A stretch of 64,000 nt of DNA from Bacteroidota bacterium (GTDB lineage Bacteria; Bacteroidota; Bacteroidia; UBA8524): assembly GCA_008933805.1 (NCBI GenBank), contig WBUH01000005.1, positions 192,822-256,821 of the forward strand, read 5' to 3'. This document shows, piece by piece, positions 14,225-42,709 of this stretch. Position 1 is the stretch's first letter. The number at the start of each line of letters is the position of its first letter. Both the position numbers and the translations under genes were made by a program. The notes beneath the pieces are model-generated. The model did no database searches, was not told the DNA's origin, and saw nothing but the letters and a program-made list of their open reading frames with translations.

Positions 14225-14228
14225 AGGC

Positions 14229-14247
14229 ATCGGGAATAAATCCCGAT
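14229..14247. repeat. Palindrome, GGGAATAAATCCC type, copy 1
   Basis: ATCGGGA-ATAAA-TCCCGAT, immediately downstream of the UMF1 gene, followed by TTATTGAGAGATAGCAGAGG. Shares core and right flank with the copies at 14291 and 14528. Confidence 0.85.
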
Positions 14248-14290
14248 GTTATTGAGAGATAGCAGAGGGTGCTATTGTTGTTGCCTTTGT

Positions 14291-14311
14291 CGTCGGGAAT
14301 AAATCCCGACG
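14291..14311. repeat. Palindrome, GGGAATAAATCCC type, copy 2
   Basis: CGTCGGGA-ATAAA-TCCCGACG, a perfect 8-bp stem, followed by CTATTGAGAGA. The same 21 bases recur at 14528-14548. Confidence 0.88.
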
Positions 14312-14331
14312 CTATTGAGAGAGGGTTACAA

Positions 14332-14351
14332 CAGGGGGGGTCAACCCCCTG
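14332..14351. repeat. Palindrome, GGGG-TCAA-CCCC type
   Basis: CAGGGGG-GGTCAA-CCCCCTG, followed by CTATTAC, the same kind of right flank as its neighbours (CTATT). It abuts the 62-bp palindrome. Confidence 0.8.
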
Positions 14352-14412
14352 CTATTACAATTACCCTCTTGTAAAGGACTTAAGTCCTTTACAAGAGGGT
14401 AATTGTAATAGC
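14351..14412. repeat. 62-bp perfect palindrome
   Basis: Two 31-base arms are exact reverse complements with no spacer; the centre is AAGGACTTAAGTCCTT (14374-14389). The outer arms begin GCTATTACAATTACCC and end GGGTAATTGTAATAGC. Checked base by base; the next outward pair (T14350/G14413) does not match. A related 46-base imperfect palindrome lies at 36846-36891. Confidence 0.95.
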
Positions 14413-14432
14413 GATAGGTTATTAACCTGTCG
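14412..14432. repeat. Palindrome, AGGTTATTAACCT type
   Basis: CGATAGGTTA-T-TAACCTGTCG, with one T/G mismatch in the stem, followed by TTACAA. It shares C14412 with the large palindrome. Confidence 0.8.
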
Positions 14433-14527
14433 TTACAAAAAATCATTGTAAAACTTACTTTTGAGACAACCCGCTACTGAGGATGATGAATTGAAGTTGT
14501 TGAGACGCTTATTAATTGCCATCATTC

Positions 14528-14548
14528 CGTCGGGAATAAATCCCGACG
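14528..14548. repeat. Palindrome, GGGAATAAATCCC type, copy 3
   Basis: Identical over 21 bases to copy 2 (14291-14311). The right flank CTATTGAGAGATGGCTGAGG resembles that of copy 1 (TTATTGAGAGATAGCAGAGG), so the repeated unit is about 40 bases. Confidence 0.88.
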
Positions 14549-14594
14549 CTATTGAGAGATGGCTGAGGGTGGAATTGTTGCTGTTGGGGAGTAT

Positions 14595-14616
14595 CGATAG
14601 GTCTCCGTATCTATCG
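14595..14616. repeat. Inverted repeat CGATAG/CTATCG
   Basis: CGATAG (14595-14600) and CTATCG (14611-14616) around a 10-base loop, 21 bases before the next start codon. CGATAGGT also begins the palindrome at 14412. It may serve as a leader hairpin of the aminotransferase gene. Confidence 0.6.
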
Positions 14617-14637
14617 GTTTTATAATTATCTTGCTGT

Positions 14638-36634: not shown

Positions 36635-36818
36635 ACACTATATACTGCATAACGAAGGCAGACAGCCCGTAATTGCAGCAACCCTCAAAGTTAATGCGGT
36701 GTTTTATGGGTTTGGGTAAAACATTTTAACACTTAGGCCAAAGTGCAAACTTTTGTGTACACAATAAAACTGCCGCCGAGAAGTATAGTAAGAGTATAGT
36801 TTATGTTCTATTTTATTA
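36635..36818. other. Non-coding stretch before the second palindrome island
   Basis: Together with the island it makes a 307-base gap. No gene seen; it contains the divergent upstream sequence of the AsmA gene and no obvious structure apart from the island that follows. Confidence 0.35.
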
Positions 36819-36838
36819 CGGCAGGTTTAAGCCTGCCG
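36819..36838. repeat. Palindrome, CGGCAGG/CCTGCCG type
   Basis: CGGCAGG-TTTAAG-CCTGCCG, a 7-bp stem; first hairpin of the second island. Confidence 0.8.
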
Positions 36839-36845
36839 CTTTTGT

Positions 36846-36891
36846 AATTACCTCCCTGCGGAGGACTTAAGTCCTTTGCAAGGAGGTAATT
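36846..36891. repeat. 46-base imperfect palindrome related to 14351-14412
   Basis: Arms AATTACCTCC / GGAGGTAATT and centre AGGACTTAAGTCCTTT. The centre and the ATTACC outer part match the 62-bp palindrome at 14351. The halves differ at three positions, one C/A mismatch and two G/T pairs. Confidence 0.88.
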
Positions 36892-36902
36892 TTAATAGTA
36901 TT

Positions 36903-36913
36903 GGGTTTAACCC
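36903..36913. repeat. Palindrome GGGTTTAACCC
   Basis: An 11-base perfect palindrome following ATAGTATT, similar in style to the TCAA and TTAA palindromes of the first island. Confidence 0.55.
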
Positions 36914-36941
36914 CATCCACATTGATTAATCGGAATCTTTT

Positions 36942-42665: not shown

Positions 42666-42709
42666 AAACGAAGAAGGCCCCGCAGCAAGCTGCGGGGCCT
42701 TCTTCGTTT
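42666..42709. terminator. Long perfect hairpin terminator
   Basis: A 21-bp perfect stem with an AA loop, GC-rich in the middle (GGCCCCGCAGC/GCTGCGGGGCC), TTT/AAA at the ends. It lies between convergent genes, so it can serve both. Confidence 0.92.

Follow-up and report, generated by a model that had tools for sequence, protein, structure and literature searches.

A palindrome island in a Bacteroidota genome as a probable cluster of REP-like repeats served by resident subclass 1.2 Y1 transposases

What is the dense island of palindromes at positions 14228-14616 of the 64,000-nucleotide stretch of Bacteroidota DNA analysed here (the window), and how can a palindrome of 62 bp within it remain perfect? 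The island begins 4 nt past the stop codon of a transporter gene (Pfam ATG22/MFS), whose closest homologues are mostly from Flavobacteriales (42-45%), and it is followed by an aminotransferase class V gene (Pfam). The first-pass annotation of this DNA had described seven inverted repeats here, including the 62-bp perfect palindrome and a repeated 21-bp unit, and all of these (7/7) are present at their places (Table 1). Their presence does not make them independent: a single 104-bp element has CAGGGGG..CCCCCTG as its left hairpin, the 62-bp palindrome as its central one and AGGTTATTAACCT as its right one, and the island consists of two kinds of element, this three-hairpin element and the 21-bp units, rather than seven separate palindromes. 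The arms of the 62-bp palindrome, each 31 nt long, are 100% complementary with 0 nt between them. Folded as single-stranded DNA, the three-hairpin element reaches -42.4 kcal/mol, compared with -9.9 kcal/mol for shuffled sequences (z = -15.3), and the whole island is likewise far more stable than its shuffles (z = -12.1). The three 21-bp units are of the GGGAATAAATCCC type; copies 2 and 3 are identical over 31 bases, CTATTGAGAG foot included, and the tail of copy 1 recurs after copy 3 at 87% (family D2). Copy 3 and the hairpin CGATAGGTctccgtATCTATCG match an inverted pair, CATCGGGAATAAATCCCGATG-CTATTGATAG...CTATCCATAG-CGGCAGGTctatgcACCTGCCG, that is found elsewhere in the genome.

Table 1. Positions of the repeat features in the window.
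Feature	Position	Strand	Basis or remark
21-bp unit copy 1, CATCGGGAATAAATCCCGATG + foot TTATTGAGAG	14228..14258	+	4 nt past transporter stop codon
Short inverted repeat ATAGCA-gaggg-TGCTAT in tail of copy 1	14259..14275	.	fold
21-bp unit copy 2, CGTCGGGAATAAATCCCGACG + foot CTATTGAGAG	14291..14321	+	
Three-hairpin element, whole	14330..14433	+	covariance-model match 96.2 bits, E 3.4e-16; alignment A1
Outer hairpin A, CAGGGGGGGTCAACCCCCTG	14332..14351	.	fold + alignment
62-bp perfect palindrome = feet GCTATTAC / GTAATAGC + central stem	14351..14412	.	
Central stem AATTACC-variable-GGACTTAAGTCC-variable'-GGTAATT	14359..14404	.	
Conserved tip GGACTTAAGTCC	14376..14387	.	49 exact genomic copies
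Outer hairpin B, CGATAGGTTATTAACCTGTCG	14412..14432	.	fold + alignment
21-bp unit copy 3 + foot CTATTGAGAG	14528..14558	+	
Inverted partner hairpin of copy 3, CGATAGGTctccgtATCTATCG	14595..14616	-	comparison with L010, L016, L168-L180
Second three-hairpin element, apparently decaying, 3 central-stem mismatches	36817..36919	-	covariance model

A search of the genome for the 21-bp unit and the palindrome core, as the first-pass annotation had advised, found that both recur dozens of times. The tip GGACTTAAGTCC occurs exactly 49 times in the 4.29-Mb genome, where about 0.2 occurrences are expected, so that chance is excluded at the scale of the genome. A covariance model of the three-hairpin element detects 70 sites at E<=0.01 and 56 at E<1e-8, which gives a copy number of approximately 56-70 on the basis of pattern and model searches of the genome. 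Nearly all 49 contexts share one plan: hairpin A (GG[AG]TTGAAA[TC]CC), CTGTTA, AATTAC, about 11 variable bp and GGACTTAAGTCC, followed by the complement of the variable segment, GTAATT, ACAAAAG and hairpin B (AGGTTTTAACCT); as these copies were gathered through the exact tip, conservation of the tip itself is partly by construction. Information content falls to background beyond about -60 and +54 of the centre and the flanks of the copies are unrelated, and the element therefore has sharp edges and no common surroundings. By simple ORF calling, 46 of the 49 copies lie outside ORFs, in 24 tandem, 13 convergent and 9 divergent gene gaps. Near-identical copies are clustered within about 1.1 kb on contig C2, and again about 10.5 kb away. 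Outer hairpins A and B face outward in alignment A1 and thus form an inverted pair; of their feet, 36 and 37 of 46 have AG as the last two bases when read outward; most are AACAG or AAAAG, and GTAG or GTGG occurs in 1 of 92.

One search pattern counts about 28 copies of the 21-bp family and a less strict pattern 44, and the units of this family pair with CGGCAGGT-type hairpins in inverted orientation. A further three-hairpin family with the core CGAAGGGTTTTAAACCCTTCG has 14 sites in the genome and follows the same plan. Recurrent hairpins ATTCCCAActtgaTTGGGAAT, TCCCTCCTagctaAGGAGGGA and CGGCAGGTctttgtACCTGCCG, seen beside 21-bp units at five loci on contigs C6 and C11 (L010, L012, L016, L018 and L029), are probably further members of these families and are concentrated on those two contigs. 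On contig C5, over about 31 kb (L163, L186-L188), a variant centre, CGAATGGTTTTAAACCATTCG, is joined to ATAAA-loop hairpins with CTATTGATAG feet, which suggests that the 21-bp family also has three-hairpin forms.

The REP-like reading of the first-pass annotation called for a Y1 transposase encoded elsewhere, whose gene would carry the same palindromes in its flanks. The genome encodes three Y1_Tnp proteins (Pfam Y1_Tnp; loci L001, L002 and L003), and palindromes of a matching kind stand on both sides of each gene. The L003 gene has a whole three-hairpin element on either side, the two copies in the same (direct) orientation, and the L001 gene is bracketed by copies of the CGAAGGGTTTTAAACCCTTCG-core family. 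The L002 gene lies between repeats of the ATAAA-loop/CTATTGATAG type, namely CAACAGGTATAAAACCTGTTG-CTATTAATAG paired with GTCGGGTTTTATACCCGAC; these share loop and foot with the 21-bp unit of the window and resemble it, with stems that are alike but not equal (CATCGGGA in the 21-bp unit, CAACAGGT beside L002). The dispersed copies and the three palindrome-flanked genes support the proposed system, in which the repeats would be mobile. All three Y1 proteins (3/3) contain the motifs DHVH, WQ and Y---Q--HH, and on this motif set and their low copy number they are assigned to TnpA_Y1 subclass 1.2, which a 2018 survey defines by DH[IV]H, WQ and Y---Q--HH and describes as generally without IS200 end structures and with no REP listed (PMC6006769). 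No cleavage assay for this subclass was found in the literature examined. Against the NCBIfam model REP_Tyr_transpos the proteins score 30.7-37.8 bits, far short of the cut-off of 80.

The same proteins match the NCBIfam IS200/IS605 transposase above cut-off, and their homologues of solved structure are IS200/IS605-type transposases (2xm3, 2a6m), as would be expected if the repeats were MITEs, that is, internally deleted IS200/IS605 remnants with only the left and right ends. The slight difference between the two outer feet (ACAG and AAAG) would also suit the left and right ends of such an element. However, the L003 gene is flanked by whole three-hairpin elements in the same orientation instead of one end per side, and there is no multicopy IS, because the Y1 genes are single-copy and the L001 and L002 proteins are only 46-60% identical to that of L003. 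We consider an origin as MITEs unlikely. The identification of the locus with an IS200/IS605 insertion sequence itself was rejected on the same arrangement: a homologous transposase and hairpins with a tetranucleotide foot are held in common, but no IS unit is seen whose left and right ends are distinct, and whole elements stand on both sides of single-copy genes.

Comparison with REP/BIME (REPIN) sequences and their TnpA_REP (RAYT) enzymes reveals a closer correspondence. Both comprise many short, nearly always extragenic palindromes in inverted pairs, with a foot beside the hairpin, and the bracketing of the Y1 gene by repeat copies in L001, L002 and L003 recalls a REPtron. The present repeats differ in lacking a GTAG/GTGG foot and in having three hairpins, the central one a long perfect palindrome, while the motif of class 2 TnpA_REP is Y---NP and that of the proteins here is Y---Q--HH. 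For want of the GTAG foot and the class 2 motif, identity with canonical REPs was rejected, although the system works like a REP/REPtron system. The RAYT subclass 2.6 of Bacteroidetes is similar in having atypical secondary structures with copies elsewhere in the genome, but its enzyme motifs are NH[LIV]H and YIH[QN]NP (PMC6006769). The Y1 proteins agree with TnpA_Y1 subclass 1.2 in motifs, short length, low copy number and a Bacteroidetes-type host; the difference is that the survey lists no REP for that subclass (PMC6006769), whereas here 3/3 genes are flanked by multicopy palindromes. A subclass reported without REP sequences is now linked to multicopy palindromes. Our search of the literature on variable-stem palindromic repeats and CTTAAG-type REPs found no matching report.

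In order to place these repeats among their relatives, we compared other genomes of the class. The three-hairpin covariance model had no match in four genomes of the same family, and among the 60 genomes searched it gave one weak match besides the window's own genome. This match (L215:2034-2131, in genome G009 of another family of the class) is a three-hairpin element with the centre TTCATTACCGCGACCTTAAGGTCGCGGTAATGAA, in the pattern ATTACC...CTTAAG...GGTAAT. Homologues of the L003 protein are encoded in 108 of 198 genomes of the class. Palindromes with a stem >=9 and a loop <=4 were found near the Y1 genes of relatives at 18/24 loci, compared with 0/24 control stretches, and in a second set at 12/19 loci, compared with 2/19; pooled, this gives 30/43 bracketed loci and 2/43 controls, the controls being taken distally within the same loci and similar, though not identical, in length. 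Weak matches to the three-hairpin model adjoin the Y1 genes of L131, L136, L137 and L146. The palindromes that bracket the subclass 1.2-like Y1 genes of relatives (L131-L159 and L216-L227) include TAGCCCACGGTTTAAACCGTGGGCTA and CCACGACCTGAAGGTCGTGG. Six relatives contain the exact core CGGTTTAAACCG in 1-2 copies each; dispersed palindromes of this kind were considered there and rejected, every copy adjoining the Y1 gene. Bracketing is thus common and dispersal is not universal, and amplification to dozens of copies is seen in this genome only.

These distributions also bear on whether the repeats are fixed, non-mobile host sites for protein binding, chromosome organisation or recombination. 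Near-exclusive extragenic placement and the conserved ATTAC and GGACTTAAGTCC modules would be compatible with such a role, but four genomes of the same family lack the repeats, copies flank a Y1 gene on both sides and near-identical copies are clustered on contig C2; we regard fixed sites as very unlikely. The first-pass annotation had held that conservation of the palindromes in position across distant relatives, with no copies elsewhere in the genome, would refute mobility. The copies are dispersed and absent from relatives, in which neither neighbour gene is syntenic: the transporter and aminotransferase genes are not adjacent there.

Taken together, these results suggest that the island is probably a group of non-autonomous REP/BIME-like repeats belonging to two families, which the resident subclass 1.2 Y1 enzymes would mobilise in trans. 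At the inner side of each hairpin stands a short A-rich foot that ends in AG, and the hairpins form outward-facing inverted pairs; in the three-hairpin family the two members of a pair are linked by the perfect palindrome at the centre (ATTAC, some 11 variable bp and a GGACTT tip). In the mechanism that we propose, the Y1 (HUH) transposases would recognise the hairpins with their AACAG, AAAAG or AATAG feet in single-stranded DNA, for example in the lagging-strand template, and would act in trans to copy the elements or to move them, as is thought for TnpA_REP and REPs. The L003 protein may serve the three-hairpin family and an L002-type protein the 21-bp family. The three-hairpin architecture and its unusual feet make recognition testable.

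The central stem combines variable sequence with matching arms. In alignment A1, 93.4% of cells pair, with 412 double-changed cells as against 120 in shuffles, and no shuffle attains its covariation score. At ten variable positions distinct copies differ by 70%, where random sequences would differ by 75%, while the two arms within one copy mismatch at only 1.6% and 28 of the 31 distinct stems are perfect there. The spacing from ATTAC to GGACTT is 10 or 11 bp in most stems. No other exact-core copy has the central stem of the 62-bp palindrome, and the first-pass suggestion of recent copying is therefore wrong for this copy.

Strong hairpins with covariation, in an island that starts 4 nt after a stop codon and includes one weak terminator-like site (14593-14618), could also indicate that the repeats are maintained for the way their RNA folds, as structured RNA or as elements at transcript ends (terminators, regulatory RNAs or RNAs that stabilise mRNA), an alternative already raised in the first-pass annotation. 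G·T and A·C mismatches are, however, about equally rare, with 8 and 7 in the variable stem and 20 and 18 in the whole central stem; since of these two G-U alone can pair in RNA, the pairing is unlikely to reflect selection for RNA folding. No Rfam family reaches threshold, the matches being plant microRNA models far below cut-off, and this null result together with the mismatch counts disfavours structured RNA. Copies occur in convergent, tandem and divergent gaps alike, no T-run follows the 62-bp palindrome and the family is absent from relatives. A terminator role was rejected, the single weak site being near chance level, and an RNA function in general seems very unlikely.

How the arms stay matched is a separate question, and here our preferred account is tentative. 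It is quite possible that in this REP-like system of subclass 1.2 Y1 transposases the central stem is a spacer of free sequence and fixed length, the arms of which are kept identical by arm-to-arm copying. The enzyme would need only the ends (ATTAC and GGACTT) with base-paired DNA of roughly one helical turn between them. As the DNA is replicated, possibly as single strands in a process linked to the transposase, fold-back template switching would transfer a change in one arm to its partner, so that the arms remain perfect while drifting. Template switching is a documented route to the creation and repair of perfect stems (PMC8794818). Alternatively, the repeats may be spread by Y1 enzymes while strong selection on pairing restores the arms by stepwise compensation; for enzymes of this class the REP palindrome is important in recognition (PMC8266576), and single transition mismatches are present in some copies. 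Near-random stems with a mismatch rate of 1.6% are difficult to reconcile with this route. Pairs of perfect stems with <=3 differences contain 34 paired differences, 18 transversions and 16 transitions, in counts that are small, non-independent and drawn from static copies; about half are thus transversions, which are impossible through one G-T intermediate. The mismatches within copies are all transitions (two shifted-register copies left out). The looped outer hairpins pair less completely (88-91%, compared with 96.6% for the central stem), as expected if arms without a loop correct each other best. These observations speak more for the two arms changing together than for stepwise compensation, which we consider possible but slightly less probable.

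On the displayed strand, outer hairpin B has 26 G·T mismatches, 14 of them from one column, and 8 A·C, and hairpin A has 7 and 19. As the bias reverses between the two sides, both hairpins favour G·T when read outward, which hints weakly at use as a single strand with the foot at the 5' side. This one genome contains dozens of stems that have diverged independently and are still perfect, which allows a direct test of stepwise selection versus one-step template switching as the source of compensatory changes in hairpins, and such variable but perfect stems are a good place for studying the evolution of DNA hairpins. If the free-spacer account holds, they would form a natural genome-wide record of palindrome self-correction.

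The first-pass annotation had considered long perfect palindromes to be rare on account of their removal by SbcCD. They are not rare in this genome, in which no SbcD was found (98% complete; control genomes were positive in 13/14). Across the class, SbcD passes its family cut-off in only 36 of the 198 genomes, with an uneven distribution. Avoidance of SbcCD was thus rejected as what makes these palindromes remarkable: the absence of SbcD permits palindromes, but because that absence is ordinary in the class it does not account for their large number in this genome. Elsewhere in the window, at 42666-42709, lies a 44-nt hairpin with a 21-bp perfect stem (AAACGAAGAAGGCCCCGCAGC), which looks like a bidirectional terminator.
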